This document shows positions 1-28,511 of a DNA stretch of 28,511 nt, in pieces. Below the pieces are notes generated by a model. The model worked only from the letters and a program-made list of their open reading frames with translations. It was not told the DNA's origin and did no database searches. A program made the translations under genes and the position numbers. The stretch is taken from IMG/VR virus record IMGVR_UViG_3300000115_000123, positions 775-29,285 of that record; one strand, written 5' to 3'. Numbering within the stretch: position 1 is the first letter of the stretch; every line of letters starts with the position of its first letter. Source of the stretch: a virus.

Positions 1-51
1 ATAGACGGTGGTTCTGTAAACATAGATGGTAACCCTATAGACTTGAACTAA
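1..51 (+). CDS. 3' end of an unidentified protein (partial)
   Basis: Frame 1 is open from the first base to a TAA at 49-51 and reads IDGGSVNIDGNPIDLN. The other two + frames stop within 30 bases. Asp/Gly/Asn-rich composition fits a phage structural or secreted-type protein, but 16 residues are too few to identify it. Its start lies outside the window. Confidence 0.4.
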   Translation: MDGGSVNIDGNPIDLN

Positions 52-89
52 GGCATAGGGTATGTTATACTGAGCTACGGCTGGTAATC

Positions 90-97
90 TATAAATG
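90..97 (+). promoter_or_regulatory. near-consensus T4-type late promoter
   Basis: TATAAATG differs from the T4 late octamer TATAAATA only at the last base. It lies 32 bases upstream of the small membrane protein at 130. The same 8-mer also occurs inside a coding region (15324), so by itself it is weak evidence. Confidence 0.35.
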
Positions 98-129
98 TAA
101 TAAAGATACTAAGACATACAGGAGACACA

Positions 130-249
130 ATGAAACGATACATCAAAGAATGGGGTTGGACAAACATCATACTTGCAGGTACATTAGGCGGATATCTAGG
201 TTATGTTTTTCTATTGGCGGCAATCAATACATTTTGTGATTGTATCTAA
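130..249 (+). CDS. 39-residue single-pass membrane protein
   Basis: This small gene starts at an ATG preceded by a strong Shine-Dalgarno sequence (AGGAGA, 120-125) at normal spacing. The product starts with a basic, aromatic head (MKRYIKEWGW), followed by one hydrophobic helix at about residues 12-34 containing the small-residue stretch AGTLGGYLGY that often mediates helix packing. It ends in two Cys residues (CDCI). It is probably an inner-membrane microprotein; phages use such proteins for lysis control or superinfection exclusion, but nothing here decides the function. The good ribosome site and the clean hydrophobic profile are the reasons to call it. Confidence 0.6.
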   Translation: MKRYIKEWGWTNIILAGTLGGYLGYVFLLAAINTFCDCI

Positions 250-313
250 CAGCCCACTACGTCAATACTGGAGCGACTTGTATTCAGTTACATAAGTAAT
301 ACTGTATATACGG

Positions 314-350
314 TGTGGGTGGCGAAGGGAGACTGGATCCACGCCACACA
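314..350 (+). other. GC-rich hairpin upstream of the first oxygenase
   Basis: TGTG-GG-TGGCG (314-324) pairs with CGCCACACA (342-350), with a two-base bulge and a 17-base loop that contains the palindrome GGATCC. It is much more GC-rich than its surroundings and sits 15 bases upstream of the ATG at 366. It lacks a T-run, so it is not a standard terminator; it may shape the leader of the oxygenase mRNA. Confidence 0.4.
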
Positions 351-365
351 TAATAGGTACGAAAT

Positions 366-854
366 ATGATAATACAAGATGATGACTTTCTCTCAGAGGA
401 ACATAAACAGTTTATAAACAATACTCTACTCTCAGATAACTTCCCTTTCTTTTACAATGAATGGAAGAACTTATCTTACATGGGACATAATGTGGTACTA
501 CGGAATGGACTTCGTAATAGTGATTACTATGAGGAGTTTATGTCTATGTTATATGCATTTACTACGAAGCATGATATACAGGTCAACAATATACTTCGTT
601 GTAGTTTGAACATGACCTTTCCTTTGTTTGAAGGTACAAGTCCTATACACAAGGACCACGAAGAAGAACATAAACAGTTAATACTCTATCTTAATGATGT
701 TGACGGTAATACTGTACTATGTGACGAGGACAGGATGCCTATACAGCATGTGGAACCTAAGGCGGGTAGAGCGATATTGTTTAACAATGTTTATCACTAT
801 GCACAGTTACCTAGAAATGGGCGAAGACTAATCGTGGTCTATACATTCAACTAA
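366..854 (+). CDS. 2OG-Fe(II) oxygenase-like protein
   Basis: This 162-residue protein has the metal and co-substrate signature of the Fe(II)/2-oxoglutarate dioxygenase superfamily: H95-x-D97 (IHKDH), distal H144 in the NNVYHYA segment, and a basic residue about ten positions later (R153/R154) that would bind 2-oxoglutarate. LILYLND follows the HxD and EPKAGRAILFNN precedes the distal His, as in prolyl-4-hydroxylase-like double-stranded beta-helix folds. The length is typical of minimal phage members. Substrate is unknown; relatives hydroxylate proteins, nucleic acids or small metabolites. It is the first of four such proteins in 3.2 kb. The Shine-Dalgarno is weak (AGG at 355-357), and a hairpin lies just upstream. 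Confidence 0.8.
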   Translation: MIIQDDDFLSEEHKQFINNTLLSDNFPFFYNEWKNLSYMGHNVVLRNGLRNSDYYEEFMSMLYAFTTKHDIQVNNILRCSLNMTFPLFEGTSPIHKDHEEEHKQLILYLNDVDGNTVLCDEDRMPIQHVEPKAGRAILFNNVYHYAQLPRNGRRLIVVYTFN

Positions 855-863
855 ATAGTAGGT

Positions 864-1025
864 ATGAGTGAACACGAATACTGTGGCACACCAGATTGTT
901 GTGGTGAGTGTGAAACAGAGAATAATAACACAACAATGGAGAATACAATGAGCATTAAAGAATTAATGGAAGAAATAGAAAAGTTAAAAGCAAGAGTAAA
1001 AGAATTAGAAGATAAATCAAACTAG
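864..1025 (+). CDS. Cys-rich plus leucine-zipper microprotein with two possible starts
   Basis: Read from ATG 864 the product has 53 residues: a Cys cluster (C7, C12, C13, C16, pattern C-x4-C-C-x2-C), a linker of mainly Asn, Thr and Glu, then a short coiled coil. ATG 864 has almost no ribosome site. An in-frame ATG at 948 has GGAG at 938-941 with six bases between, the better initiation signal, and would give a 25-residue peptide. That peptide has hydrophobic residues at I3, L6, I10, L13, V17 and L20, a regular 3-4 heptad pattern. Either form may be made. It lies between two oxygenase genes and could help assembly of a neighbouring product, but no family is recognised. Confidence 0.5.
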   Translation: MSEHEYCGTPDCCGECETENNNTTMENTMSIKELMEEIEKLKARVKELEDKSN

Positions 1026-1039
1026 AAAATTTTTAGATT

Positions 1040-1588
1040 ATGATAGAAGCGTTTAGTCCATACTTTGGACCTTTGATATTGAAATTTAAGTGTCCAGAAA
1101 ATATCGTCCAATCTATCCAAGATATTTCGGAGATTGAACGGAAACGGAATCCAAAAAATCGTAGAGTTCTCGGTGAATTTGATGACGAGAGACCTGAAGA
1201 CTTTGTCGCTCTTCGTTGGCGTTTACCTATAGAGACGAGACTGAAAGAATTTATTGATGTCTATTTGAAAGAGGCAAATGTGGATCGCTCTTATGAGATT
1301 GAAAGTTTATGGGTCAATGTTCAAAAGCGTGGCGAGTATCAACCTCATCACAAACATAGTGGCGATATCTCTTATAATTTAATACTTGACCAACCAAAAG
1401 GTTTAGGTGAGAGTGGTGTGTTATACTTCTCTTACGGAGAAAAACAAGCATTTAATAAAACACTATATAGAGTTGAACCAGAGAGAGGTGACTTAATACT
1501 CTTCCCTAGTTGGGTAACGCATTATGTTTATCCAACAACAAGTACACAAGAAAGGATTACCGCAGCCGGTAATATAAATTTAACATGA
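1040..1588 (+). CDS. putative 2OG-Fe(II) oxygenase (2OG-FeII_Oxy_5 type)
   Basis: This 182-residue protein resembles the phage 2OG-FeII_Oxy_5 group. Motif order: WVNVQKRGEYQPHHKHSGD (residues 91-109) carries the first metal site, GVLYFSYGE is the following strand, EPERGDLILFPSWVTHYV (146-163) carries the distal His H161, and R172 in TQERITAAGNI is the likely 2-oxoglutarate ligand. The first site reads H104-x-H106, not the canonical HxD, so the third ligand may be missing or replaced. No clear Shine-Dalgarno precedes ATG 1040. The end overlaps the next gene by four bases (ATGA), so translation of the two is probably coupled. Substrate unknown. Confidence 0.75.
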   Translation: MIEAFSPYFGPLILKFKCPENIVQSIQDISEIERKRNPKNRRVLGEFDDERPEDFVALRWRLPIETRLKEFIDVYLKEANVDRSYEIESLWVNVQKRGEYQPHHKHSGDISYNLILDQPKGLGESGVLYFSYGEKQAFNKTLYRVEPERGDLILFPSWVTHYVYPTTSTQERITAAGNINLT

Positions 1589-2289
1589 TACATTTTCCAA
1601 CAAACGTAATAGATAATTTTTGTGACAACCCAGACGAAGTGGTCAAAATGGCAAAGTCTGATAAAATAGAATGGCACAAACATGAGAGTGGTAACTGGCC
1701 GGGTATGAGGTCACAAGCGTTACATGTATTAGACAAAGAGTTTTGGGCAAACATGATTAAGAAATATTTAAATGTCTTTTGGACAAATGATGAAATGAAC
1801 TCACAAGATATTCGTTTTGAAGCAAGTAGTTTCTTTCAGCGTATTTCAAGTGAATACACAAATGGTTGGATACATTCTGACTTTCCAGATGTTCACACAA
1901 CGATACTCTATCTGACACCAAACGCAGACCCTAAATCAGGTACGGCAATATACATGCCAAAAAATATTAATACACAAGTAAAACATACAGATATAAAACA
2001 AAGTTATTATCGTGGAGAAATCAGTAAAGAGGAACAACAACCTTACCTTGAAGAACACAATAAAGGTTTCATTGAAGATTGTTTCTTTGCCAATAAGTAT
2101 AATCGTCAGATAGGTTTTGATAGTCGTTTATGGCATGGCGTTAAAGAGTTTGATACAAACACAAAAGAAGAACGATTAACAATTGTTACATTCATTCACA
2201 AAGTTATTGCACACGGACTACCAATGAACAGAATGAGAAATGTGCCGTTGACAAGAGATTTAAATTTACCACAACTAGATATAGTATAG
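1585..2289 (+). CDS. 2OG-Fe(II) oxygenase-like protein, long form
   Basis: This is the longest of the four oxygenase-like proteins (234 residues). It opens with MIHFPTNVIDNFCDNPDEVV, a start common in DUF6445-like phage oxygenases. H97-x-D99 (NGWIHSDFPD), distal H184 (DSRLWHGVKEF) and R197 (KEERLTIV) give a complete 2-His-1-Asp metal site and 2OG anchor. The insert at about 126-170 is rich in Lys, Glu and Gln and may form a substrate-binding lid. An Arg/Met-rich tail (GLPMNRMRNVPLTRDLNLP) follows the core. ATG 1585 overlaps the stop of the upstream oxygenase (ATGA). The two paralogues differ clearly in sequence, so they probably act on different substrates. Confidence 0.78.
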   Translation: MIHFPTNVIDNFCDNPDEVVKMAKSDKIEWHKHESGNWPGMRSQALHVLDKEFWANMIKKYLNVFWTNDEMNSQDIRFEASSFFQRISSEYTNGWIHSDFPDVHTTILYLTPNADPKSGTAIYMPKNINTQVKHTDIKQSYYRGEISKEEQQPYLEEHNKGFIEDCFFANKYNRQIGFDSRLWHGVKEFDTNTKEERLTIVTFIHKVIAHGLPMNRMRNVPLTRDLNLPQLDIV

Positions 2290-2307
2290 AAAATTTATTT
2301 ACACATA

Positions 2308-2338
2308 TTGAACAGAATATGGACAAAACTCTTATATA
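2308..2338 (+). promoter_or_regulatory. possible sigma70-like promoter before the ParB-like run
   Basis: TTGAAC (2308-2313) and TATATA (2333-2338) are separated by 19 bases, longer than the ideal 17. The 88-base gap between 2289 and 2378 is the only break in an otherwise overlapping gene series, so a promoter here is reasonable, but the match is mediocre. Confidence 0.3.
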
Positions 2339-2377
2339 TAGCATGCTGCTCTTTCAGACCCCCAACCTTAACCACCT

Positions 2378-2704
2378 ATGAAACTCCTCTCGGCCAAACA
2401 TATAGAGTTTCCTGAATACCACAAGGTCTACAATCTGAGTATGCTCGGCAACAAAACAGATTATCACAACCCAAACGATAAACAAAAACACAATCTATCA
2501 AAGTTATTTGAAAGTTTAGATAAACATGGTATGACACACCCTATCATTATATCTTGGAACGCATACTCTGTATCTGTAGGTCATCAACGAGTATGGTATG
2601 CTAAATCAAAAGGGTACACACACATAGATTGTTACCATGTAGAAAATCAAACACAATGGGAAAAAGTTTTTAATTATACAGCGAATGAGGAATATTTAAA
2701 ATGA
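2378..2704 (+). CDS. ParB-like domain protein, copy 1
   Basis: This 108-residue protein carries a ParB/Srx-like core: HGMTHPIIISWNAYSVSVG (about residues 50-68) matches the strand-turn-strand that reads roughly G-x-x-x-P-I-x-V in ParB N-terminal domains. HQRVWYAKSKGYTHIDCYHV (69-88) matches the helix and strand of the ParB box (G-x-x-R-x-x-A-x-x-x-G). It has no helix-turn-helix, so it is not a chromosome-partition ParB. Phage proteins of this size are often called ParB-like nucleases; newer work shows the fold can bind or hydrolyse CTP or ATP. There is no clear ribosome site before ATG 2378. The stop overlaps the next gene (ATGA). It is paralogous to the protein at 3747. Confidence 0.65.
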   Translation: MKLLSAKHIEFPEYHKVYNLSMLGNKTDYHNPNDKQKHNLSKLFESLDKHGMTHPIIISWNAYSVSVGHQRVWYAKSKGYTHIDCYHVENQTQWEKVFNYTANEEYLK

Positions 2705-3186
2705 TTGAAGTCAATAATTTTTTACCACAAGATGAGTTTGATAAATTAAAAACATTAATTACAAAGGAAGAATTTCCTTGGTATCATATTCAATCTATGG
2801 TAGCAGATAAGAAAGATAACTTAGGTTACTTTACTCATTCTTTCTATAATAATAATTCTATTAACAGTAATTATTATTCTGACTACATAGTACCAATACT
2901 GAACAAACTTAATGCAAAGGCAGTTGTTGAAGTACGCTCTAATTTATTTCCATCTGTGTTCTTTAATAAATCAGAATGGCATGTTGATAGAACTTTTAAT
3001 TGCAAGACGGCAATATTATATTTAAATACTTGTGATGGTGGTACAGAATTTAAAATGAACATACATAAATTTATTCAAGCGGAAGAAAACAAAATGGTAA
3101 TCTTTAATTCTAGTTTAGAACATAGAGCATGTACATCAACGAATACAGATTATAGATATATCATTAACTTTAACTATTATGATTGA
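2701..3186 (+). CDS. 2OG-Fe(II) oxygenase-like protein
   Basis: This 161-residue protein has a complete superfamily signature: H94-x-D96 (SEWHVDRTF), distal H141 (NSSLEHRAC) and R152 (TDYRYIINFNY). Strand segments AILYLNTCDGGTEF and NKMVIFNSS sit where expected. It has the same size and layout as the protein at 366, including an opening of the type MI-(hydrophobic)-x-D-x-F-L, and is probably a distant paralogue. It starts inside the stop of the ParB-like gene and overlaps the methyltransferase gene by eight bases, so expression of all three is likely coupled. Substrate unknown. Confidence 0.8.
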   Translation: MIEVNNFLPQDEFDKLKTLITKEEFPWYHIQSMVADKKDNLGYFTHSFYNNNSINSNYYSDYIVPILNKLNAKAVVEVRSNLFPSVFFNKSEWHVDRTFNCKTAILYLNTCDGGTEFKMNIHKFIQAEENKMVIFNSSLEHRACTSTNTDYRYIINFNYYD

Positions 3187-3754
3187 AGTAAGAAAAACAA
3201 AAGACTATAAGTCTATGCTCTTTAATGATGAGTTTATACAAGGTCGTGTTAATGCGTCTGGACAAATATCTTTATTGTATATGAAAGAAATAATGAAAGT
3301 GTTTAATCATGTAGAGAATATACAACATGTTTGTTTACTAGGTCTTGGTGCAGGTAATTTACATACAGAAATATACAATAAGTTTCCAGATGTACACATA
3401 GATACAGTTGAAATAAATCCAGAAGTTATAGAAATTGCACACAAAGAATTTAATTTACCAAAGTCAAAACGCCTTCGTATTATACAAGGTGATGTCCATG
3501 ATTATATACATGAAGTACATAACTATGATGTAGTGATTGTTGATGTATATGACGCAGATGGTCAAGTGATGTTAGACAATCGTTGGTTACGACAACAAGG
3601 TAAATGTATTGTTTATAATAGTTTAGTCAATAAGGACACTTATGTAAGTTATATGACTGAACTAAATACTTTGTACGATAGAGTACACGAACAATATAAA
3701 CCTAAACTCTCAAGCGAGGAGTATAATCATATCGCATTTTGTTTTAATGACTAA
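3179..3754 (+). CDS. SAM-dependent methyltransferase, spermidine-synthase-like
   Basis: This 191-residue Rossmann protein shows the ordered motifs of class I methyltransferases closest to the spermidine synthase-like group: CLLGLGAGNL (glycine-rich motif I, about residue 52), DTVEINPEVIEIAHKEF (acidic motif II, about 75-91), GDVHDYI (motif III, about 104) and YDVVIVDVYD (motif IV, about 115). At 191 residues it is much shorter than true spermidine synthases (about 280), with the N-terminal tetramerisation domain absent. Polyamine synthesis is therefore possible but unproven; methyl transfer to a modified base, peptide or small molecule is equally likely. It overlaps both neighbours by eight bases, placing it firmly in one operon with oxygenase and ParB-like genes. 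Confidence 0.75.
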   Translation: MIEVRKTKDYKSMLFNDEFIQGRVNASGQISLLYMKEIMKVFNHVENIQHVCLLGLGAGNLHTEIYNKFPDVHIDTVEINPEVIEIAHKEFNLPKSKRLRIIQGDVHDYIHEVHNYDVVIVDVYDADGQVMLDNRWLRQQGKCIVYNSLVNKDTYVSYMTELNTLYDRVHEQYKPKLSSEEYNHIAFCFND

Positions 3755-4100
3755 AAAAATATTACACGCAAAAGAAATTACTCACCCAGACTTGTATCAA
3801 ATATTAGATTTAAAAGATGTAACTTTTAAATGGGACAAAGTACAAGGCAGTTGGACAAGTTTCGCAGATAGTCAAGGCATTAATTATAAAAAATTATTTG
3901 ATGACATGGCAGAAAACGGTATGAAACATCCTGTAATGGTACGAAAACTCAATGAAATATATCGTAAATGGCAGGCAGGTGGTCGTAGAATTATATGGGC
4001 AAAGTTAAATGGTTATACACATATAGGTGCATATGTTTTAAAAACACAAGAACAAGTTGATGAAATATATGCGGCTCAATATGATGAAAGTTATAAATAA
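3747..4100 (+). CDS. ParB-like domain protein, copy 2
   Basis: This 117-residue protein is a paralogue of the one at 2378. Both have a Lys-rich start followed by AKxI near residue 8, NGMKHPVMVRK against HGMTHPIIIS, GGRRIIWAKLNGYTHIGAYV against GHQRVWYAKSKGYTHIDCYHV, and a Tyr-ending acidic C-terminus (DESYK against NEEYLK). The middle is diverged. The ParB-box Arg and the G-Y-T-H-I stretch are kept in both. The two copies flank an oxygenase and the methyltransferase, which suggests duplication inside the cassette. The final codons (AGT TAT AAA TAA) contain the late promoter octamer of the porin cassette. Confidence 0.65.
   Translation: MTKKILHAKEITHPDLYQILDLKDVTFKWDKVQGSWTSFADSQGINYKKLFDDMAENGMKHPVMVRKLNEIYRKWQAGGRRIIWAKLNGYTHIGAYVLKTQEQVDEIYAAQYDESYK
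4092..4099 (+). promoter_or_regulatory. T4-type late promoter for the porin cassette
   Basis: Perfect TATAAATA, embedded in the last codons of the ParB-like gene. With T4 geometry (octamer at -13 to -6) transcription would start at about 4105, giving an 87-base leader before the porin ATG, the longest leader predicted for the octamer sites in this window. Confidence 0.75.
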
Positions 4101-4106
4101 TACACC

Positions 4107-4168
4107 ATGAAAAATTTACGAGGTACATATTAAATCCCATTCAGGGATTGATTATAATTTTTATAATC
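4107..4168 (+). promoter_or_regulatory. structured leader: 8-codon ORF followed by two hairpins
   Basis: ATG 4107 to TAA 4133 encodes MKNLRGTY and would start two bases from the predicted mRNA 5' end. Right at its stop begins a hairpin, AATCCC-ATTCA-GGGATT (4133-4149), followed directly by a second perfect one, GATTATAA-TTT-TTATAATC (4150-4168). The porin Shine-Dalgarno AAGGAG lies at 4181-4186. The layout resembles a leader-peptide or attenuator region. It may also act as a simple stabilising or terminator structure; a TATAAT box at 4153-4158 lies inside the second hairpin but has no good -35. Confidence 0.4.
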
Positions 4169-4191
4169 TATAATTCAAAAAAGGAGAATAC

Positions 4192-5049
4192 ATGTTAAGA
4201 TTAATTACTGCTACGGTAGTTGGTATCGTTTTGCTTGCTTACACAGCAAACGCTGCTGAGATTAAACCGTATGGTACTTTTAACTACAAGTTTTCGCATG
4301 ATGAAAACGCCTCTGGTGTTGCATACGACAAACTTGAAAACAACGGATCAAAATTAGGTATTGATTTTTCAGAACCTAGTATTGAAGGTAGTTCTATTTC
4401 AGCAATTGCAAAATTGGAAGTTGGACTAGACGTTGACGATAGTGGTTCAGACACATTTGATTCCAGACTAGCATATGTTGGTTTAGAAAATAATGGTGTT
4501 GCAATTACTGTAGGTAGACAAGCTCATGCTTCAGTATCTCAAACAGATAACTTTCAAGTATATGGTAACAATGCTGTATTTAAATATGCAGATAGGTCAT
4601 CTAATACAATCAAACTAAGCAATGGTACAGTTAGTGCAATGGCAATGGTTGATGGAAGTAACGGCAAAAATGGTGTTGATGTTTATGAATGGAATATTTC
4701 TCATTCAATAAAAGACATTAACTTATCTGGTGGTTACGCTGACGATAGAGTTAACGATATCTCATATTGGGCTGCAGGTGCATCCACAACTGTAGGTGAC
4801 TTTACAGTCGCTTCAACTTATTCAATCTATGACGCTGCTACTGACTTAGTTGGTATGGAAGCAACAGTAGGTTGGAAAGCATTAACAGTTGGATACGGAG
4901 ATAAAGAAGGTACTGGTACTTACATGACTTATGGTGTAAACCATAACATGACAGAAAGTCTAAGTGTCTATGCAGAAATGCAACAAGACGATTTAGATAC
5001 TGGTACTGATTTACAACACTACTCATTTGGAACAAAGTTTGTATTCTAA
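4192..5049 (+). CDS. outer-membrane porin (Gram-negative general porin type)
   Basis: This 285-residue protein has a Sec signal peptide with cleavage expected after A21 (T-A-N-A, then AEIKPYG). The first mature strand EIKPYGTFNYKF and the block SKLGIDFSEPSI...AIAKLEVGLDV...RLAYVGLENNGVAITVGRQ (about 53-110) match the diagnostic region of the porin_4 family. Alternating polar and hydrophobic strands continue to the C-terminus YSFGTKFVF, with the terminal Phe used as a BAM assembly signal. It is shorter than common 16-strand porins (330-400), so loops are short or strands fewer. The product should form a diffusion channel in the host outer membrane. A late promoter and strong ribosome site (AAGGAG) suggest high late expression. 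It was probably acquired from a bacterium. It could alter nutrient uptake or phage receptor availability. Confidence 0.85.
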   Translation: MLRLITATVVGIVLLAYTANAAEIKPYGTFNYKFSHDENASGVAYDKLENNGSKLGIDFSEPSIEGSSISAIAKLEVGLDVDDSGSDTFDSRLAYVGLENNGVAITVGRQAHASVSQTDNFQVYGNNAVFKYADRSSNTIKLSNGTVSAMAMVDGSNGKNGVDVYEWNISHSIKDINLSGGYADDRVNDISYWAAGASTTVGDFTVASTYSIYDAATDLVGMEATVGWKALTVGYGDKEGTGTYMTYGVNHNMTESLSVYAEMQQDDLDTGTDLQHYSFGTKFVF

Positions 5050-5052
5050 ATA
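5045..5052 (+). promoter_or_regulatory. near-consensus T4-type late promoter
   Basis: TCTAAATA, one mismatch from TATAAATA, overlaps the porin stop codon and continues as TCTAAATAGT, sharing the GT extension of the perfect sites. It would place a start near 5058 for the small membrane gene at 5083. Confidence 0.3.
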
Positions 5053-5082
5053 GTAATAACATAAAAACAAAGGAGAAATCTA

Positions 5083-5241
5083 ATGTCAAAATGGATAAAA
5101 GATATATCTGCTTGGAAAGATTATGGTCTAATTTTATTAGCTGTAGTTCTTTTTACAGGTATCATGGCACCCCTTACAATAATTAAATGGGGTCTAATTG
5201 CTTGGATCGCTGCTAACTTATGGCAGAGATACAAAGCATAA
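5083..5241 (+). CDS. 52-residue membrane protein
   Basis: The gene starts at ATG 5083 with AAGGAG (5070-5074) upstream, 33 bases after the porin. The product has a charged amphipathic head (MSKWIKDISAWKD), two hydrophobic stretches (about residues 15-28 and 31-45) separated by a Pro (MAPLTIIK), and a short basic tail (QRYKA). It is likely a hairpin or single-pass inner-membrane protein. No family recognised. The position between the porin and another membrane microprotein suggests a small envelope-modifying cassette. Confidence 0.6.
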   Translation: MSKWIKDISAWKDYGLILLAVVLFTGIMAPLTIIKWGLIAWIAANLWQRYKA

Positions 5242-5258
5242 TATAAAAGGAAAATTAA

Positions 5259-5414
5259 ATGATTAGGAAATTAATATACGTTATTATAGTAATAGTAGCG
5301 TTTACTCTTGGTCACCACTATGGCGAAGACGCCGCTAGTTTAGTAGATAATGTACCTTTACCAAAAGTTACAATTGAAATGCCAGCGACAGAAACACCTG
5401 CCGTAGTTGAATAG
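5259..5414 (+). CDS. 51-residue N-anchored envelope protein
   Basis: ATG 5259 follows AAAGGA (5246-5251) and lies 17 bases after the previous stop. Residues 5-17 are a short hydrophobic anchor after MIRK; the remainder is polar and Pro/Thr/Val-rich (VPLPKVTIEMPATETPAVVE), so the C-terminus probably sits in the periplasm with the anchor in the inner membrane, or the N-terminus is a cleavable signal. It is the last gene before the terminator at 5423. No family recognised. Confidence 0.6.
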   Translation: MIRKLIYVIIVIVAFTLGHHYGEDAASLVDNVPLPKVTIEMPATETPAVVE

Positions 5415-5422
5415 ATTAAAAT

Positions 5423-5475
5423 AAAAAAAAGGACATCCTCACTTTTGTTTCAAAGGTACTTGGATGTCCTTTTTT
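5423..5475. terminator. bidirectional intrinsic terminator between convergent genes
   Basis: Eight A (5423-5430), GGACATCC (5431-5438), a 23-base interior, GGATGTCC (5462-5469) and six T (5470-5475) form a hairpin with a T-run on either strand. The interior can pair further: ACTTTTG with CAAAGGT (one G-U pair). It ends the rightward porin cassette and also sits downstream of the leftward genes that end at 5629. Confidence 0.9.
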
Positions 5476-5566
5476 AATTTTGTACGAACATTTAAAATGT
5501 TCTATGTTGCCTGTCCCATAGTGCTAGACAGATTACTCACTCTCACTTTTATTTCAAAGATACTTG
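5438..5566. repeat. 25-base direct repeat pair, one copy inside the terminator
   Basis: Copy A (5438-5462) and copy B (5542-5566) share 23 of 25 bases; both differences are G in A and A in B. Copy A is the interior of the terminator hairpin; copy B lacks the GGACATCC arms. The copies are 104 bases apart, in the gap between convergent operons. Copy B may be a decayed terminator or a protein- or RNA-binding site. Confidence 0.7.
5486..5502. other. 17-base perfect palindrome
   Basis: GAACATTT-A-AAATGTTC is a perfect inverted repeat with a one-base centre, just right of the terminator. The single-base loop makes an RNA hairpin strained, so a DNA-binding dimer site is at least as likely. Confidence 0.5.
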
Positions 5567-5628
5567 AGCTTTCACCTATACGTCTGTACAACGCCCCACA
5601 GGATAAAAACCGTTAGGTCTTATACTTG

Positions 5629-5892
5629 TCACATATCAGCAACAACTCCTTTCGTTGGTGTTATAACTTGGTCAAAGTACGCCCAATATTCGCCTTCACT
5701 TTCACCAAACGTTACATCTTTATAACCTATAGAACCTAAGTAACCCATATCAGTATCGTACTCTTTTAGTTTGATACCTAACTCACCAGCAGGGTCTGAC
5801 GTAGTAAGTCCTATAGAAATGTCTGTAATAATTCCGTCTCTATTGATACCTCTCTTGGAGATTTCAACTTTATCACCTATCTTAATTATCAT
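5629..5892 (-). CDS. small SH3/KOW-like protein
   Basis: This 87-residue protein begins IKIGDKVEISKRGINRDGIITDIS, the glycine-turn pattern of SH3/KOW-like barrels (about residues 3-25), and ends with SEGEYWAYFDQVITP. It is acidic and all-beta in appearance. The start ATG overlaps the stop of the upstream minus-strand gene (TAATG), so the two are translated together. Similar small barrel proteins are common among early or accessory genes of marine T4-like phages. No function is known to me. It ends 150 bases from the shared bidirectional terminator. Confidence 0.75.
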   Translation of the reverse strand: MIIKIGDKVEISKRGINRDGIITDISIGLTTSDPAGELGIKLKEYDTDMGYLGSIGYKDVTFGESEGEYWAYFDQVITPTKGVVADM

Positions 5893-6146
5893 TATGCCGC
5901 CTCCAACATTGACATTGGTACTCTATAACTTCTACCAAGCATATTTACTACACACCTAGATTGATTAATCTTAGTAATTACACCAGGAGTTTTTTTAGTC
6001 TTTTGGACAACAAACACTTTTTGTCCTACAGATAGAGAAGATTTAGCATTCATAACTTTAACATCACTAATAAAACTAGAAAGTTCATTCAGTTCAGTTA
6101 AAGACAGTTGTTGGATGCCAGCCTTGATTAGTTGGATTTTGTTCAT
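5892..6146 (-). CDS. small protein with N-terminal helix and SH3-like barrel
   Basis: This 84-residue protein has an N-terminal helical part (KIQLIKAGIQQLSLTELNEL, residues 3-22) followed by VGQKVFVVQKTKKTPGVITKI (about 41-61) and a closing strand CVVNMLGRSYRVPMSML, a KOW/SH3-like barrel. ATG 6146 has AAAGG seven bases upstream on the minus strand. The gene is first in a two-gene leftward operon driven by the promoter at 6177-6205. Together with the downstream protein it may be a pair of nucleic-acid or RNA-polymerase binding factors, but that is only suggested by the fold. Confidence 0.75.
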   Translation of the reverse strand: MNKIQLIKAGIQQLSLTELNELSSFISDVKVMNAKSSLSVGQKVFVVQKTKKTPGVITKINQSRCVVNMLGRSYRVPMSMLEAA

Positions 6147-6176
6147 AATATAACCTTTCGTTTTAAATATAGATAT

Positions 6177-6205
6177 ATCCTATCACATAAATACTTTAAA
6201 GTCAA
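6177..6205 (-). promoter_or_regulatory. sigma70-type promoter for the leftward operon
   Basis: On the minus strand, TTGACT (6205-6200) and TAGGAT (6182-6177) are separated by exactly 17 bases, 5/6 matches at -35 and 4/6 at -10. This differs from the TATAAATA sites of the rightward genes and suggests host-polymerase (early) expression. Confidence 0.75.
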
Positions 6206-6213
6206 GCATTATT

Positions 6214-6241
6214 TTGACTTTATTTCAAGGTGCGACAGAAT
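6214..6241 (+). promoter_or_regulatory. divergent sigma70-type promoter, rightward
   Basis: TTGACT (6214-6219), 16 bases, then CAGAAT (6236-6241). The -35 together with that of the leftward promoter forms the inverted repeat AAAGTCAA (6198-6205) and TTGACTTT (6214-6221). The -10 is weak. It would serve the small genes from 6287. Confidence 0.45.
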
Positions 6242-6247
6242 GTCTCA
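6231..6247. promoter_or_regulatory. candidate operator palindrome over the rightward -10
   Basis: TGCGACA-GAA-TGTCTCA is an imperfect inverted repeat (6 of 7 arm positions pair) covering the -10 of the rightward promoter. A repressor dimer could block that promoter without touching the leftward one. Confidence 0.35.
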
Positions 6248-6286
6248 GTTTTGTTCACTATTTGTTCTTTTTGAAAGGAGAATATT

Positions 6287-6427
6287 ATGGGATTTTTAAC
6301 TAAATTATGGACTATGACAGATAGTCTATGGAAACCTAAACCGTTAGTATTGACGAAAGACATGGAAGTCAAACCTAAGAAGAAAAAGAAATCAACTAAA
6401 AAGAAATCAACTAAAAAAAGGAGTTAA
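6287..6427 (+). CDS. 46-residue Lys-rich protein
   Basis: ATG 6287 is preceded by an excellent AAAGGAG (6274-6280). The N-terminal 23 residues contain aromatic and hydrophobic positions (MGFLTKLWTMTDSLWKPKPL); the C-terminal third is KKKKKSTKKKSTKKRS, with an in-frame repeat encoded by a repeated AAGAAATCAACTAAA. The tail should bind nucleic acid or acidic membranes. Its last codons (AAA AGG AGT TAA) also provide the AGGAG ribosome site for the next gene, so the Lys/Arg/Ser ending may be partly forced by that signal. No family recognised. Confidence 0.65.
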   Translation: MGFLTKLWTMTDSLWKPKPLVLTKDMEVKPKKKKKSTKKKSTKKRS

Positions 6428-6428
6428 C

Positions 6429-6551
6429 ATGAATTGCGACAACTGTGGTCATCCTTCTCATTGTGGAACACCCTTAATGAAGACCAATGAGGGTAGTGAG
6501 TATGAAGTTTGTAAACATTGTAGATGTGAGGAGTGTACTCCAAAGGAATAA
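6429..6551 (+). CDS. 40-residue Cys-rich, zinc-ribbon-like protein
   Basis: This microprotein has seven Cys (3, 6, 12, 28, 31, 33, 36): a first knuckle CDNC plus HC, and a second CKHCRCEEC. Two C-x2-C pairs separated by about 20 residues match a minimal treble-clef or zinc-ribbon layout. The ATG lies five bases after AGGAG in the previous coding end, and the gene is followed by a normal-spaced start at 6555 whose own site (AAAGGA) is formed by the codons AAG GAA here. It probably binds zinc; partner unknown. Confidence 0.6.
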   Translation: MNCDNCGHPSHCGTPLMKTNEGSEYEVCKHCRCEECTPKE

Positions 6552-6554
6552 ATT

Positions 6555-6824
6555 ATGCCAAGAATGAGGGAGTTTACCTTTAATAATGGAAAAGAAGATA
6601 AAATAATAGAAGCAATGTCTTATAAGAAAGCCGTGAAGTCTTATCAGTCAAGTGCAAATAGAAAAGAAGACGGCGATACAGTTAACGTTTACTGGTTAAG
6701 TAAAAAAGGTAAAGAAGAAAGTCTAGTACAGAAATTACCTTTAGGTAGAAAAATTAGGCAAGCGGAAATAATTGAAAGAGAAAAGGCGGCACTTAAAGCG
6801 GCTAAAGAAGCAGGTAGTAGATAA
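6555..6824 (+). CDS. basic helical protein, unknown function
   Basis: This 89-residue protein begins MPRMREFTFNNGKEDKIIEA, then a Lys/Ser-rich helix (SYKKAVKSYQSSANRK), a short beta segment DTVNVYWLSKKGKEESLVQKLPLG (about 41-64), and a long charged C-terminal helix REKAALKAAKEAGS. Such small proteins often stand next to the PAAR/gp25 block of marine T4-like phages. The stop overlaps the next start (TAATG). It may be a minor virion or DNA-binding protein; not recognised. Confidence 0.7.
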   Translation: MPRMREFTFNNGKEDKIIEAMSYKKAVKSYQSSANRKEDGDTVNVYWLSKKGKEESLVQKLPLGRKIRQAEIIEREKAALKAAKEAGSR

Positions 6825-7267: not shown

Positions 7268-7271
7268 TCTT

Positions 7272-7279: not shown

Positions 7280-7284
7280 GTCGT

Positions 7285-20076: not shown

Positions 20077-20077
20077 T

Positions 20078-20296: not shown

Positions 20297-20297
20297 T

Positions 20298-22178: not shown

Positions 22179-22198
22179 TAACTAACGGAGAATAAATC

Positions 22199-22435
22199 AT
22201 GGCTGAGAAAGCAAAAGAACAACCTAAAGATATTAATTTAGATATGGAACACCTTACAGTAAAAGGTAAGATACATGCTGAACAATATAATAATCTTAGA
22301 GCACAAAAAATCCAACATCAAGTTGAAATAGAAAAAATAGATGTCCTATTGGCATACTATACTAAAGTTATTCCAACTGAGGTGTTACCTGAAGACCAAA
22401 GACCAAAAAAAGAAACTGAAAAGAAAGATAAGTAA
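22199..22435 (+). CDS. small charged helical protein downstream of the S74 fibre
   Basis: This 78-residue protein has GGAG nine bases before ATG 22199. The middle (LTVKGKIHAEQYNNLRAQKIQHQVEIEKIDVLLAYYTKVIP, about 19-59) predicts one long helix with coiled-coil spacing; both ends are Lys/Glu/Pro-rich and probably disordered (TEKKDK end). Its place between fibre genes suggests a fibre assembly factor or minor virion component. No family recognised. Confidence 0.65.
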   Translation: MAEKAKEQPKDINLDMEHLTVKGKIHAEQYNNLRAQKIQHQVEIEKIDVLLAYYTKVIPTEVLPEDQRPKKETEKKDK

Positions 22436-22436
22436 T

Positions 22437-22444
22437 TATAAATA
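22437..22444 (+). promoter_or_regulatory. T4-type late promoter for the BppU-like gene
   Basis: Perfect TATAAATA followed by GT, two bases after the previous stop. Predicted +1 near 22450; AAGGAG (22452-22457) and ATG 22463 follow, a normal leader. Confidence 0.78.
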
Positions 22445-22462
22445 GTCCCATAAGGAGAAATT

Positions 22463-22801
22463 ATGGCAGCTATTACTAATCTACTAATTGAACAAGGTGC
22501 AAACTTTTCAAGTACAATAACGCTTTTCAATGATGACGACACAGTATTTAACCTGACTGATTACACAGCTGCAGGTCAAATACGAAAGTCTTACTCATCA
22601 AGTTCAGCGTCAGCTACATTTTCAATAGCGTTCTCTGCTGATAGGTCAGCAGGACAAATAACACTTTCTTTAACTCCTACTCAGACTGCTGCTTTAGAAG
22701 AAGGAAGATATGTTTACGATATTGAAGTTACTTCAAGTGATAGCGTTGTAACAAGAGTTATACAAGGTACCGTAACTGTGAGTCCAAATGTCACACGGTA
22801 A
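22463..22801 (+). CDS. BppU N-terminal-like baseplate/fibre adaptor
   Basis: This 112-residue all-beta protein opens MAAITNLLIEQGANFSSTIT (1-20), has DYTAAGQIRKSYSSSSASATF (about 33-53), and closes with LEEGRYVYDIEVTSSDSVVTRVIQGTVTVSPNVTR. This order (E-Q-G-x-x-F, then a Q-x-R-K-S strand, then G-x-Y-x-Y-D-I-E and an ending V-x-P-x-V-T-R) resembles the N-terminal domain of phage upper baseplate proteins (BppU) and is common in marine myoviruses. Such domains anchor fibres to the baseplate. It stands just before two repeat-built fibres and has its own late promoter and AAGGAG. Confidence 0.65.
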   Translation: MAAITNLLIEQGANFSSTITLFNDDDTVFNLTDYTAAGQIRKSYSSSSASATFSIAFSADRSAGQITLSLTPTQTAALEEGRYVYDIEVTSSDSVVTRVIQGTVTVSPNVTR

Positions 22802-22825
22802 TATATTATGTCATAAAGGGGTATT

Positions 22826-25800
22826 ATGGCAATTAAAGCAAAGATAACATCAACTAATAGTGCAGGTCCTCAAAAGGTATCAGTAACAGTACCCGCTTCT
22901 GGCGGTACAGTAACAAGTGTTACTGCTATAGGTGATTTAACAGATGTTATTGCTTCATCATTACCTGACGGTGCTATTTTACAATATTTAACTTCCTCAG
23001 GTAACTGGGTATCCACAGCATTAGTAGATGATGATACATTCCCTTCATCAACAGCAACAGCAAAAAGTTTACACTCTGGCGAAAGTCTTAGAAATTTTAT
23101 TTTAGATGGTACATCAACACTTACTAACAAGACAATAGATTTAGACGCCAACACCTTAACAGGTACAATAACAGAATTTAATAGTGCATTACAAGGTGCT
23201 GACTTTGCTACTTTAGCAAATACAGAAACATTTACAAATAAAACTTTAACTCAACCAAAGATTGCTGAAATAGTTTCCTTATCAACTGGTGGTATTACAC
23301 TAGACGCTGATACTGATATTGTATTAGACGCTGATGGTGCAGATATAATTTTAAAAGATGGTGGTAGTGAGTTTGGTAGATTTACAAACTCATCTGGTGA
23401 ATTAGTAATTAAATCAAGTTCAAGTGCTACAACAGCATTAACATTTAGTGGTTCAAGTGCCACATTAGCAGGTAACTTAACAGTTACAGGTACATCTACA
23501 TTCAATGGTGGTACAATTAATCTTGGTGACGCAGCTACAGATACAATTGCTTTCAATGGTACAATTACTGGCAGTTTAGTATTTGAAGGTAGTACAAGTG
23601 ATAGTTTTGAAACTACATTAACACCAGGTAATCCAACTGCTGATATTACACTTACATTACCATCAAGCGCTAGTGATACACTTGTAGGTAAAGCAACTAC
23701 TGATACACTTACAAACAAATCAATAGATTTAGCAAACAATACTATAACAGGTTCAGTTGCAGAATTTAATAGTGCATTACAAAGTGATAGTTTCGTTACA
23801 CTTACAGGTTCAGAAACTTTATCAAACAAACAGTTTACAAATCCAGTTATAGCACATATAGACGGTACTGGTGGTATAGAATTAGACGCAGTACAAGATA
23901 TTACTTTAGACGCAGGTGGTGGAGATATATTTTTAAAAGATGATACAGCTGCTTTTGGTGCATTAACAAATAGTTCAGGTAACTTAATAATTAAATCTGG
24001 TACTACAACTGCTATGACATTTAGTGGTGCTAATGTAACTATGGCAGGTAATGCTACAGTTGCAGGTAACTTAACAGTTCAAGGTACTACAACTACAGTT
24101 GACAGTTCATCTATAAATGTTCAGAATGCTTTAGTCTTTGAAGGTGCAACAGCAGATAGTTTTGAAACAACATTAACTACAGTTGACCCTACAGCAGATA
24201 GAACAATATCATTACCAAATGCAACAGACACATTAATAGGTAAAGCAACTACTGATACATTAACAAATAAAACTTTAACAACTCCTGTAATTGCAGAAAT
24301 AGATTCCAATGCTTCTATAACTTTAGACGCTGCTACTGATATTATATTAGACGCAGGTGAACAAGATATTATTTTAAAAGATGACGGTACTGAGTTTGGT
24401 AGATTTACTAATAGTTCAGGTGAGTTAGTAATTAAATCAGGTTCAAGTTCTACAACGGCAATCTCAATGTCAGGTGCCAATGTTACGATTGCAGGTAATT
24501 TAGTAGTAACTGGTGCAACAGAAAATGATGGCAATATAACAATTGGTGACGCTGCTACAGATACTATTACTTTTGGTGGTACTATTCAAGGTAGTTTAGT
24601 CTTTGAGGGTAGTACAGCAGACAGTTTTGAAACAACTTTAACACCAGGTAATCCTAGTGGAGATATTACTCTTACATTACCGTCAAGTGCTACAGATACT
24701 ATAGTTGCAAGAAACACTACAGACACATTAACAAACAAAACTTTAACAAGTCCAACAATCAATGCAGGAACATTAAGTGGTGCATTTACTGGAACGGCAG
24801 ACTTAACAGGACTAGTTCTTTCAGGTGCAAGTCCTCTTGTTTTTGAAGGTTCAACAAATGATAGTTTTGAAACAACTTTAGCAGTTACAGACCCTACAGC
24901 AGATAGAACAATTACTTTACCTAACTCTACAGGTACTTTAGTTGTAACTGCTGATGTATCTGGTGACGCTACAATGGCAACATCTGGTGCATTAACATTA
25001 GCAACAGTCAATAGTAACACAGGTAGTTTTGGTAGTACAACATCAATACCAGTTATAACAGTCAACGCAAAAGGTCTTGTTACTGCCATGTCAACAGCTA
25101 CAATTGTAACAACATTAACTGTAGCCGCTGATAGTGGTTCAGATGACGCTGTTTCTTTGGCAACTGACACACTTAATTATGAAGGTGGTGCAAACATTAC
25201 AACAACAGTTTCTAATAACAATATAGCGATTGCCTTAGACGCTTCTCCATCAGTAACAGCATTAACAACAAGTGCTAATGTAAACGTTGGTGGTAGCATT
25301 GTATTTGAAGGTAGTACAGCAAATAGTTTTGAGACAACACTTACAGTTACAGACCCAACAGCAGATAGAACAATAACTTTCCCTAACAATACAGGTACAG
25401 TTGCGTTAACAAGTGATATTACTGGTGGTGGTCAAGCAGGTTCATTTACAAATTTAACATCTTCAGGTAATACTATACTTGGTAACGCTACCTCAGACAC
25501 AGTAACATTCAATGGTAGAATAGCGTCACACTTTGTACCTAGTGCTGATGATACATATACTTTAGGTACTGCTTCTTTAAAATGGGCAGAATTACATGTA
25601 TCAGGAAGTACAATCTTTTTAGGTGGCGCACAATTAACTGCTAGTGGAACAACAGTAGTATTACCGGCGAATAGTACAGTAGGTGATAGAGCAATACCTG
25701 ACGCAGATCCTACTACAGGTATTGTAACAAGAAAAGTACCATTATTTACAAAAGCAGGTGGTCTATCTTCAGCAGCAAAAACTTTTACTTTTAAAGCGTC

Positions 25801-25888
25801 TGGTTCATCTGATAGAGTTTTTGATACATTTACTAAAGAAGATGGCGCAGGAATAACAACACAAGAGAGAGCATTATTTTCATTTTAA
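22826..25888 (+). CDS. repeat-built tail fibre, long form
   Basis: This 1020-residue protein has a unique head (MAIKAKITSTNSAGPQKVSV and onward, to about residue 90) and a shaft with five F-E-G-(S/A)-x-x-(D/N)-S-F-E-T-T modules near residues 252, 437, 592, 672 and 826. They alternate with T-N-K-(T/S/Q) linkers and D-(A/G)-x-x-D-I-x-L-K-D blades. After about 905 comes a tip: DDTYTLGTASLKWAELHVSG is a common fibre-end motif, then FLGGAQLTASGTTVVLPANS and a charged C-terminus ending RALFSF. There is no S74 domain. Probably a trimeric beta-helical fibre. GGGG lies upstream of ATG 22826; transcription likely continues from the promoter at 22437. Confidence 0.85.
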   Translation: MAIKAKITSTNSAGPQKVSVTVPASGGTVTSVTAIGDLTDVIASSLPDGAILQYLTSSGNWVSTALVDDDTFPSSTATAKSLHSGESLRNFILDGTSTLTNKTIDLDANTLTGTITEFNSALQGADFATLANTETFTNKTLTQPKIAEIVSLSTGGITLDADTDIVLDADGADIILKDGGSEFGRFTNSSGELVIKSSSSATTALTFSGSSATLAGNLTVTGTSTFNGGTINLGDAATDTIAFNGTITGSLVFEGSTSDSFETTLTPGNPTADITLTLPSSASDTLVGKATTDTLTNKSIDLANNTITGSVAEFNSALQSDSFVTLTGSETLSNKQFTNPVIAHIDGTGGIELDAVQDITLDAGGGDIFLKDDTAAFGALTNSSGNLIIKSGTTTAMTFSGANVTMAGNATVAGNLTVQGTTTTVDSSSINVQNALVFEGATADSFETTLTTVDPTADRTISLPNATDTLIGKATTDTLTNKTLTTPVIAEIDSNASITLDAATDIILDAGEQDIILKDDGTEFGRFTNSSGELVIKSGSSSTTAISMSGANVTIAGNLVVTGATENDGNITIGDAATDTITFGGTIQGSLVFEGSTADSFETTLTPGNPSGDITLTLPSSATDTIVARNTTDTLTNKTLTSPTINAGTLSGAFTGTADLTGLVLSGASPLVFEGSTNDSFETTLAVTDPTADRTITLPNSTGTLVVTADVSGDATMATSGALTLATVNSNTGSFGSTTSIPVITVNAKGLVTAMSTATIVTTLTVAADSGSDDAVSLATDTLNYEGGANITTTVSNNNIAIALDASPSVTALTTSANVNVGGSIVFEGSTANSFETTLTVTDPTADRTITFPNNTGTVALTSDITGGGQAGSFTNLTSSGNTILGNATSDTVTFNGRIASHFVPSADDTYTLGTASLKWAELHVSGSTIFLGGAQLTASGTTVVLPANSTVGDRAIPDADPTTGIVTRKVPLFTKAGGLSSAAKTFTFKASGSSDRVFDTFTKEDGAGITTQERALFSF

Positions 25889-25899
25889 CACTAAAAGGA

Positions 25900-25907
25900 T
25901 ATAAATA
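25900..25907 (+). promoter_or_regulatory. T4-type late promoter for the third fibre
   Basis: Perfect TATAAATA followed by GT. ATG 25913 is six bases after the octamer, as at gp25, so the predicted mRNA is leaderless. AAGGA at 25895-25899 lies upstream of the predicted +1 and 13 bases from the ATG, so it can help only on read-through transcripts. Confidence 0.75.
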
Positions 25908-25912
25908 GTATT

Positions 25913-27802
25913 ATGGCAGATAAAGTACCAATAAGGACGGTCTTTGACAGTAGTGGAAACGCTACTGGATTAGCAGAATACCAATCAGGAGAAACAGTAG
26001 GTTTCGTACACGGTGGTACAGGTTTAGCCGCTATAGGAAGTGCCGGTCAAGTTTTAAGAGTAAATTCAGGTGCAAACGGTTTAGAATACGGTGACGGTTT
26101 TTCTGCTAACGCAATCACATTAGACGCTGCTACAGACATTACATTAGACGCTGGTGGCGCAGATATTATTTTAAAAGATGACGGTACTGAATTTGGTAGA
26201 TTTAGTAACTCATCAGGACAACTTGTCATTAAATCAAGTGGTAGTGCTACTACTGCTATTTCAATGTCAGGTGCAAATGTTACCATTGCAGGTAACTTAA
26301 CAGTTACAGGTACAACTGAGGGTGATAGTAATATTACTTTAGGTGACGCCGCTACAGATACAGTAACCTTTGGTGGTACTATTTCAGGTAGTTTAGTATT
26401 TGAAGGTTCAAGTGCTGATAGTTTTGAAACTACTTTAGTACCAGGTAATCCAAGTGCTGATATTAGTTTAACATTACCCGCTACTGCTAGTGATACATTA
26501 GCAGGTATTGCTTCAACACAAACTCTTACAAATAAAACATTAACAACACCTGTTATCGCTGAGATAGATAGTGGTTCAACAATTACACTTGACGCTACTA
26601 CAGATATTAATTTAGACGCAGATGGCGGCGATATAATATTAAAAGACGGTGGTACTGAGTTTGGTAGATTTACAAATTCTGGTGGACAACTAGTAATTAA
26701 ATCTAGTTCTTCAGCAACAACTAATATGACAATGAGTGGTGCTAACACCACAATTGCAGGTAACTTAACAGTTACAGGTACATCAACATTCAATGGTGGT
26801 ACAGTTAATCTTGGTGATAGTGCTACAGATACAATTGTCTTTAATGGTCTTGTATCAGGAAGTATTGTCTTTGAAGGTAGTAACGTAGATAGTTTTGAAA
26901 CTACTTTAACTCCAGGTAATCCAAGTTCAGATATTACATTAACATTGCCAAGTGCCTCTAGTGATGTACTAGTTGGTCGTGCAACAACAGACACATTAAC
27001 AAATAAAACAATAACAAGTCCAACAGTTTCAGGTTTAACATTATCAGATAGTGCAATCAGTTTTGAAGGTTCTACTGCTAACTCATTTGAAACTTCTTTA
27101 ACTGTAACAGACCCTACAGCAGATAGAACAATCACATTACCAAACGCAACTGGTACTCTTATATCTCATGGAATGTTTAGTGGTGACGCTACAGTAGCAA
27201 CAAGTGGTGCAGTTACATTAGCGACAGTAAATAGTGATACATCAGCAGTTGGTAGTACAACTGTTATACCAGTAATTACTGCTAACGCAAAAGGACTTGT
27301 AACATCTATAGGTACTGCCTCTATATCTACTCTATTAACAGTAGGTGCAGATAGCGGTTCTAACGATACAATAACAGTAGGTACTGATACACTAGATTTC
27401 TCTGGTGGATCAAACATTACAACAACAGTTTCAAACAATGATATCTCAATCGCCTTAGACGCAAGTCCAAGTGTGACTAACTTAACAGTTGGTGGTAACA
27501 TTGTATTTGAAGGTTCAACGGCAGACAGTTTTGAGACTACATTAGCAGTAACAGACCCAACCGCTGATAGAACAATCACAATACCTAATAAATCAGGTAC
27601 TGTGGCAATGACAAGTGATACATCATTCCCACAATCAACATTAACTGAACACCCAGCGGCGCAAGGAAATGCTGATTTAGCAGGAGGTGAAACACCTTTT
27701 GAAGCAATCGTTGACGCATTCCAGGTTATTACATCTAATTTGTATGACCACATGGAACCTAGAGGTGAAGTAGTTACAGTTGATTTAGGAAGTGTAGCAT
27801 AA
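25913..27802 (+). CDS. repeat-built tail fibre, short form
   Basis: This 629-residue protein has a different head from the previous fibre (MADKVPIRTVFDSSGNATGL, then GFVHGGTGLAAIG, a common fibre motif). The shaft contains F-E-G-S modules near residues 162, 319, 382 and 531, with the same T-N-K-T linkers and D-G-G-T-E-F-G-R-F blades. The tip is short and ends YDHMEPRGEVVTVDLGSVA, with an Ala/Gly/Glu-rich helix before it. No S74 chaperone. Long stretches of the shaft are near-identical in DNA to the 22826 gene (for example around 23475 and 26765), pointing to recent duplication or recombination. Start chosen at 25913 from the promoter geometry. Confidence 0.85.
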   Translation: MADKVPIRTVFDSSGNATGLAEYQSGETVGFVHGGTGLAAIGSAGQVLRVNSGANGLEYGDGFSANAITLDAATDITLDAGGADIILKDDGTEFGRFSNSSGQLVIKSSGSATTAISMSGANVTIAGNLTVTGTTEGDSNITLGDAATDTVTFGGTISGSLVFEGSSADSFETTLVPGNPSADISLTLPATASDTLAGIASTQTLTNKTLTTPVIAEIDSGSTITLDATTDINLDADGGDIILKDGGTEFGRFTNSGGQLVIKSSSSATTNMTMSGANTTIAGNLTVTGTSTFNGGTVNLGDSATDTIVFNGLVSGSIVFEGSNVDSFETTLTPGNPSSDITLTLPSASSDVLVGRATTDTLTNKTITSPTVSGLTLSDSAISFEGSTANSFETSLTVTDPTADRTITLPNATGTLISHGMFSGDATVATSGAVTLATVNSDTSAVGSTTVIPVITANAKGLVTSIGTASISTLLTVGADSGSNDTITVGTDTLDFSGGSNITTTVSNNDISIALDASPSVTNLTVGGNIVFEGSTADSFETTLAVTDPTADRTITIPNKSGTVAMTSDTSFPQSTLTEHPAAQGNADLAGGETPFEAIVDAFQVITSNLYDHMEPRGEVVTVDLGSVA

Positions 27803-27807
27803 TAGAT

Positions 27808-27824
27808 TATAAATAGTATAAATA
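27808..27824 (+). promoter_or_regulatory. tandem T4-type late promoters
   Basis: Two perfect TATAAATA octamers (27808-27815 and 27817-27824), nine bases apart, in the 49-base gap before the last fibre. Predicted starts near 27821 and 27830. AGGAG (27841-27845) precedes ATG 27852. It is the only doubled site in the window. Confidence 0.75.
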
Positions 27825-27851
27825 TAGCATAGAATTAACTAGGAGAAAAAT

Positions 27852-28511
27852 ATGCCAACAGCATTACAATTAAGACGAGGATCAACGTCTCAAAATAATA
27901 GTTTTACAGGTGCTGTAGGTGAGGTAAGTGTAGATACTGATAAAGATACTCTTAGAGTCCATGATGGCTCGACAGCAGGCGGTTTTGAAGTAATAACGGC
28001 AACTGCTACACAAACACTCACAAACAAAACCTTAACGAGCCCAAATATTTCAGGCGCCTCTTTCACAGGTGCAAGTTTCACTTTTGAAGGTGCAACAGAT
28101 GACAGTTTTGAAACAACTCTAACAGTTGTAGATCCAACAGCTGACAGAACAGTAACTATTCCAAATGCAACTACTACACTAGTTGGTACGGATGTTTCAC
28201 AAACTCTTACGAACAAAACTTTAACTACACCAGTTATCGCTGAGATAGATAGTGGTGGTAGTATAACTTTAGACGCAACAGCAGATATTATATTAGACGC
28301 TGATGGTGCTAACGTAACTATAAAAGACGGCGGTACAACAACATTAGACTTTGTTAGTAACGGTGCAACAGATATTACACTAGACGCTCCAGGCGATGTT
28401 AAAATAGACGCTGATGGCGGAGACATAATCTTTATGGATGGTGGTGCTGTCTATGGTAGTGCAACAAACAATTCAGGTAACTTGATTATCAAATCAGGAA
28501 CTACAACAGCT
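27852..28511 (+). CDS. tail fibre with Mtd-N-like head (partial, runs off the window)
   Basis: The frame is open for 220 codons to the last base. Residues 3-45 (TALQLRRGSTSQNNSFTGAV, then GEVSVDTDKDTLRVHDGSTA and GGF) match the N-terminal domain pattern of the Bordetella phage major tropism determinant, also widely seen at the heads of phage fibres. Two T-N-K-T-L-T linkers (about 57 and 121) frame one F-E-G-A-x-D-D-S-F-E-T-T module near residue 77. From about 140 come DATADIILDADGANV and VKIDADGGDII blades. The last 57 bases repeat 21495-21551 almost exactly. The start is firm (AGGAG, tandem promoters). The end is unknown. Confidence 0.82.
   Translation, partial: MPTALQLRRGSTSQNNSFTGAVGEVSVDTDKDTLRVHDGSTAGGFEVITATATQTLTNKTLTSPNISGASFTGASFTFEGATDDSFETTLTVVDPTADRTVTIPNATTTLVGTDVSQTLTNKTLTTPVIAEIDSGGSITLDATADIILDADGANVTIKDGGTTTLDFVSNGATDITLDAPGDVKIDADGGDIIFMDGGAVYGSATNNSGNLIIKSGTTTA

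Follow-up and report, generated by a model that had tools for sequence, protein, structure and literature searches.

Many short sites of the restriction type, GATGC/GCATC being one of them, have been removed from the genome of the Pelagibacter phage HTVC008M, and this avoidance, which acts on the DNA word itself, spares those sites whose GA follows a G (GGATC, GGANTC, TCNGGA and GGATGC). That GGA-bearing copies are spared suggests a chemical mark on GGA, made by the phage, through which it evades DNA-cutting defences; the enzyme responsible is probably one not previously assigned to such a task. A phage-encoded modification of GGA that masks the avoided sites overlapping it is the simplest reading of the survivor rule, and the proposed enzymes are one or both of two DruA-family proteins of the phage; we regard this explanation as a whole as probable, although well short of certain.

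Sequences and controls

The window, by which we mean the whole stretch of 28,511 nucleotides analysed, carries the gene for the baseplate wedge protein gp6 (7728..9584, plus strand), which served as a marker for identifying the phage and gathering relatives. Window position 7728 corresponds to position 31,575 of KC465899.1, the 147,284 bp genome of HTVC008M, an abundant T4-like ocean phage of Pelagibacter (host HTCC1062). Since the two are near-identical (99.7% identity over the 12 kb compared), sites were also counted on the whole HTVC008M genome. Expectations for the window were obtained from 300 codon-preserving (synonymous) shuffles, from a strict version that also fixes the codon block and the next base, and from a maximum-order Markov model, with the 512 pentamer pairs ranked by z. 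Paired numbers given below for a site are observed/expected.

Depletion of GATGC/GCATC and other words

The window holds four copies of GATGC/GCATC against 31 expected from the Markov model, the second lowest z among the 512 pentamer pairs; the lowest belongs to CACTG/CAGTG (1 against 46). Synonymous shuffling predicts 55.7 copies (minimum of 300 shuffles, 42) and strict shuffling 45.7 (minimum of 300, 35), while the complete HTVC008M genome has 23 copies, where the Markov model predicts 131 and the strict shuffle 174 (expectations of about 172–199 from the codon-preserving shuffles). Codon-preserving controls thus reproduce the low count in neither the window nor the full genome, which backs the view of the initial annotation that selection acts on the DNA pentamer and not on codon usage. 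Exact counting agrees with the three copies of GATGC and the one of GCATC that had been located by eye, and with the abundance given for GACGC (about fifty; 52 counted) and GCGTC (at least seven; 7 counted). The codon habits that had been described are equally evident: Asp-Ala is written GAC GCN, Asp before GC being GAT once and GAC 47 times, against 123 GAT and 40 GAC (GAC 40/163) before other G-initial codons, and Ala-Ser shuns GCA TCN, GCA making up 2.6% of Ala codons before TC and 56.5% elsewhere. The avoidance holds, as had been claimed, in both orientations and in every reading phase with enough expected sites, and GACGC does extend beyond the fibre genes, 25 of the 59 copies of GACGC/GCGTC lying before position 20,000.

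Other suggestions of the initial annotation stand only in part. GACGC is indeed common, but what looked like replacement by it largely reflects the synonymous choice open to Asp-Ala; depleted sites in HTVC008M pass into whichever synonymous word is on offer. The depletion of GATC, for instance, coincides with a surplus of AGATA, CTATC and TATCA, so that no single T-to-C process is at work, and T-to-C mutation or very-short-patch repair (GATGC to GACGC, GANTC to GANCC) is ruled out by these varied outlets and by the GGA rule. It is reasonable to propose that a system recognising GCATC exerts the pressure, but since at least seven sites are avoided and GCATC is only one of them, that pressure is broad. 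Besides GATGC, the strongly depleted words are GATC, GANTC, TCNNGA, TCGA, CACTG, AGTACT and GAATTC, and in the depletion test for restriction-site avoidance the words fall below the expectation from codons and dinucleotides. By synonymous shuffling, HTVC008M has TCGA at 2/211, CACTG at 9/121, AGTACT at 0/47, GAATTC at 0/30 and CGCG at 0/32, with AGCT at 134/407 and ACGT at 101/318; GTAC (610/579) and CATG (381/367) are normal.

The sole CAGTG/CACTG of the window, where shuffles predict 28.7–29.6, lies at 7427..7431 (plus strand) in the context GCAGTG. In the whole genomes of HTVC008M and of its relative Mosig this word is even more strongly depleted than GATGC, and its few survivors, written as CACTG, all precede C or G (9/46 against 0/75 before A or T in HTVC008M; 7/43 against 0/69 in Mosig), which is possibly the trace of a second masking motif.

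The GGA exemption

Two of the four survivors in the window, GATGC at 734..738 and 6114..6118 (plus strand, exact counts), stand in GGATGC, the exempt context, as does GCATC at 4780..4784 in the porin gene, which is followed by C and reads GGATGC on the minus strand; the only copy without GGA, at 20544..20548 (plus strand), stands in TGATGC. Scanning the window for the other words gave 15 GATC sites (336..28134; at 336, 1283, 4346, 5205, 7496, 13394, 14873, 15014, 15601, 17173, 21223, 25706, 27408, 27880 and 28131), all of them GGATC or GATCC, nine GANTC sites (1147..27959; at 1147, 4459, 8873, 9702, 13556, 20835, 22780, 24302 and 27955), all GGANTC or GANTCC, and 23 TCNNGA sites (1093..28499), all TCNGGA or TCCNGA. 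The overlap with GGA/TCC is thus 15 of 15, nine of nine, 23 of 23 and, for GATGC, three of four. With survival taken as unrelated to GGA and sites treated as independent, the chance of all survivors bearing GGA is about 10^-33 for GATC, 10^-26 for GANTC and 10^-57 for TCNNGA. The modification-linked constraint that the initial annotation had offered as an alternative to host pressure accordingly becomes its more informative half, GGATGC copies being spared, with a mark that we infer from sequence.

The rule extends to the whole of HTVC008M. By synonymous shuffling the GGA-free forms are at 0/206 (HGATCD), 0/211 (HGANTCD), 0/225 (TCDHGA) and 9/178 (HGATGC), against 26/9.7 (GGATCC), 53/115 (GGATCD), 31/55 (GGANTCD), 132/125 (TCDGGA) and 14/17 (GGATGC) for the GGA-bearing forms, and the strict codon control gives the same pattern. 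GGA-bearing copies are therefore close to expectation, with two exceptions: one-sided GGATC and GGANTC reach only about half of the expected numbers, and two-sided GGATCC is enriched. The near absence of TCGA, whose sole copy in the window is at 27969..27972 (14–37 expected), is predicted by the same rule, since its GA can never follow G. GGGA is unprotected (GGGATC 0/9.4, TCGGGA 0/3.6), and the motif in HTVC008M is therefore narrower than GGA. Environmental relatives obey the same GGA rule.

We propose that the phage would modify GGA at its adenine, or else a base in the complementary TCC. That adenine coincides with the one that ordinary restriction–modification (R-M) methylases guard in GATC, GANTC and TCNNGA, so that a mark falling there would mask the overlapping sites; in HTVC008M a mark on a single strand would often suffice.

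Candidate modifying enzymes

A family search of HTVC008M gave no match to PF02086, PF01555 or PF00145 (the D12, N6/N4 and C5 methyltransferase families), and a motif scan found no DPPY-type motif in any plausible enzyme. The methyltransferase-like gene at window 3179-3751 was rejected as a DNA methyltransferase, as its product resembles a small-molecule or O-methyltransferase. Two paralogues match PF14236 (DruA, DUF4338), with E values of 2e-10 and 5e-18, and both pass the curated cut-off of 27 bits (40.9 and 65.6 bits). Protein A (KC465899.1, 86,116-87,258), which also matches the PADLOC DruA model (4e-14), occupies the slot before a peptidase, and protein B (99,535-100,659) directly follows the DNA polymerase. 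Their family matches are to DruA and to PHROG families of unknown function, with none to a Mom family, and a cyanophage homologue carries the annotation 'methylcarbamoylase mom'. The fold model of protein A (pLDDT 76.8) has GNAT acetyltransferases as its top PDB matches, at E values of 0.3–1 and none at or below 0.001, and the alignment of protein A, searched against PDB sequences, matched nothing; DUF4338 has been termed a GNAT domain (PMC10853773).

The best argument for the DruA proteins as putative DNA-modifying enzymes is that they appear to swap position with DNA methyltransferases. The slot after the DNA polymerase holds DruA in HTVC008M, an adenine methyltransferase (by annotation) in Mosig, an HhaI-like C5 methyltransferase in Melnitz and a C5 methyltransferase in L207, while that before the peptidase holds DruA in HTVC008M and Mosig and a C5 methyltransferase in the relatives L185, L188 and L207. 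Because no methyltransferase of the main classes is recognizable and those of the relatives sit in these same two slots, one or both DruA/DUF4338 proteins, GNAT-like, are proposed as the makers of the mark, and would act like Mom of phage Mu. Of the exempt genomes with better sampling, HTVC008M and G008 have both A and B, Mosig has A and G005 has B. Some of these also carry ordinary methyltransferases (a D12 enzyme in G005, a methyltransferase in Mosig), for which reason the association of DruA with the GGA rule is correlational. A third apparent modification slot lies between hsp20 and a DUF3310-type gene, with a methyltransferase-like gene in L184 (5407-7989) and a D12 methyltransferase in G005 (L220, reverse complement 7438-8241).

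GGA might instead be modified by another phage enzyme, such as a 2OG-Fe(II) oxygenase or an unrecognised methyltransferase, or the mark might lie on C or T of TCC. HTVC008M does encode many 2OG oxygenases and two carbamoyltransferases, and sequence data alone fix neither the base nor the strand of the mark; DruA, on the other hand, is what the better-sampled exempt genomes have in common, in slots that relatives give to methyltransferases, and we consider such an enzyme unlikely, if a serious contender.

Comparison with other phages

A plainer account would dispense with modification altogether: host defences acting on GCATC, GATC, GANTC, TCNNGA and the like would simply not cut when G precedes GA. 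Many R-M-type sites are clearly shunned, and real enzymes do show flanking-base effects, but several distinct sites would all need an identical flanking rule. The unrelated podophages HTVC011P and HTVC019P, which infect the same host HTCC1062, shun GATC and GANTC without any GGA exemption (GGATCD 0/34 and 0/32), and in Melnitz, a relative that avoids GATC, GGATC is not spared (4/51 in one 50-kb stretch, 10/144 genome-wide). Over these three GATC-avoiding genomes, which are without DruA, GATC stands at 8/317 with no GGA and 10/207 with one. We hold plain avoidance to be improbable.

The podophages also indicate that the exemption is not host-derived. Pelagibacter genomes are described as GANTC-methylated (PMC9516812), which would allow a host methyltransferase, for example of the CcrM type, to mark phage DNA at GGA, but the lack of a GGA exemption in phages of the same host and the difference between GGA and GANTC make this very improbable. 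Codon usage, amino-acid composition or fibre repeats are a negligible explanation of the low counts and are refuted, for although 34 of the 59 GACGC/GCGTC copies lie after position 20,000, in the fibre-gene half of the window, the shuffles never approached the observed four (35 at the lowest) and the effect is genome-wide.

In pooled DruA-bearing contigs, whose totals are non-independent samples because they include near-identical relatives and were chosen for GGA-free depletion, GATC is at 3/1241 with no GGA, 218/589 with one and 117/53 with two, while TCNNGA is at 3/673 without and 365/347 with GGA, and GATGC at 26/454 and 40/45. In Mosig it looks as though both strands of GATC need marking (HGATCD 0/194, GGATCD 0/98, GGATCC 19/6), and yet GGATGC is spared (19/16, against 13/157 for HGATGC), which would fit a mark that, when present on one strand, protects against some enzymes and not against others. 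The DruA-bearing relatives L172 (0/8) and L152 (0/13) have little or no one-strand GATC exemption. GGGATC, which is not spared in HTVC008M, is spared (9/12.2) in the clade for which B was the only one of the two proteins detected; the motif therefore varies. A sister clade with a C5 methyltransferase is mixed, GGAWTC being spared (26/26, against 33/92 for HGAWTCD) and GGASTC and GGATGC not. Cyanophages with protein B avoid none of GATC, GANTC, TCNNGA and GATGC, so no signal of a GGA exemption is readable there.

Relation to known systems

SAR11 bacteria have been reported to be almost without R-M systems (PMC7029224, PMC9516812), and DpnII (PF04556), the family searched, had no match over the cut-off in 347 Pelagibacterales genomes. 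The published GANTC depletion of pelagiphages is alike in that short R-M words fall below codon-aware expectation; that account, in the part concerned, reports GANTC density and mentions no exemption (PMC9516812), whereas here multiple sites are avoided and their GGA-overlapping copies spared. Should the GGA mark be confirmed, strong multi-site restriction pressure would have acted on a phage whose host is credited with almost no restriction systems.

Mom of phage Mu, a GNAT-like adenine modifier, offers a parallel, in that a relaxed short asymmetric adenine motif would guard against many unrelated restriction enzymes; the Mu Mom motif is unlike the proposed GGA. Orphan DNA methyltransferases of phages occupy the same slots in relatives, with the same presumed purpose, but HTVC008M has no match to the D12, N6/N4 or C5 family. 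Druantia, whose DruA resembles proteins A and B through PF14236 and, for A, PADLOC, is a multi-gene operon with the DruE helicase, whereas only DruA-family genes are found among the annotated genes of HTVC008M. The structural resemblance of the cyanophage homologues to DruA has already been reported, with no function given in the section concerned (PMC12774648). We tentatively advance the wider proposal that DruA/DUF4338 may be a widespread sequence-specific class of phage DNA-modifying proteins, the pelagiphage GGA mark masking GATC, GANTC, TCNNGA and GATGC together and the spared sites being the footprint of its specificity. If true, this would explain what a family of proteins otherwise familiar chiefly through Druantia defence does, and would provide a general method by which the modification motif of a phage is deduced from its surviving avoided sites.

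Other phages and window genes

GGATG, a FokI-type word, is missing from the coding sequence of HTVC011P and HTVC019P (0/20 and 0/30), as is GATC. Among cyanophages, GTAC is absent from stretches of Syn1 (0/151) and S-RIM44 (0/141) and CTAG from a stretch of S-SM2 (0/78), and AGCT in Syn1 is apparently exempt within GCAGCT (20/27 against 15/70). In the window, the products of 366-854 and 2701-3186, annotated as 'DNA endonuclease V', match Pfam 2OG-Fe(II) oxygenase profiles, although one of the two scores under the curated cut-off, and the label may be an old mis-annotation. The phage also carries a Gram-negative porin gene at 4192-5049 (PF13609, E value 1e-13).
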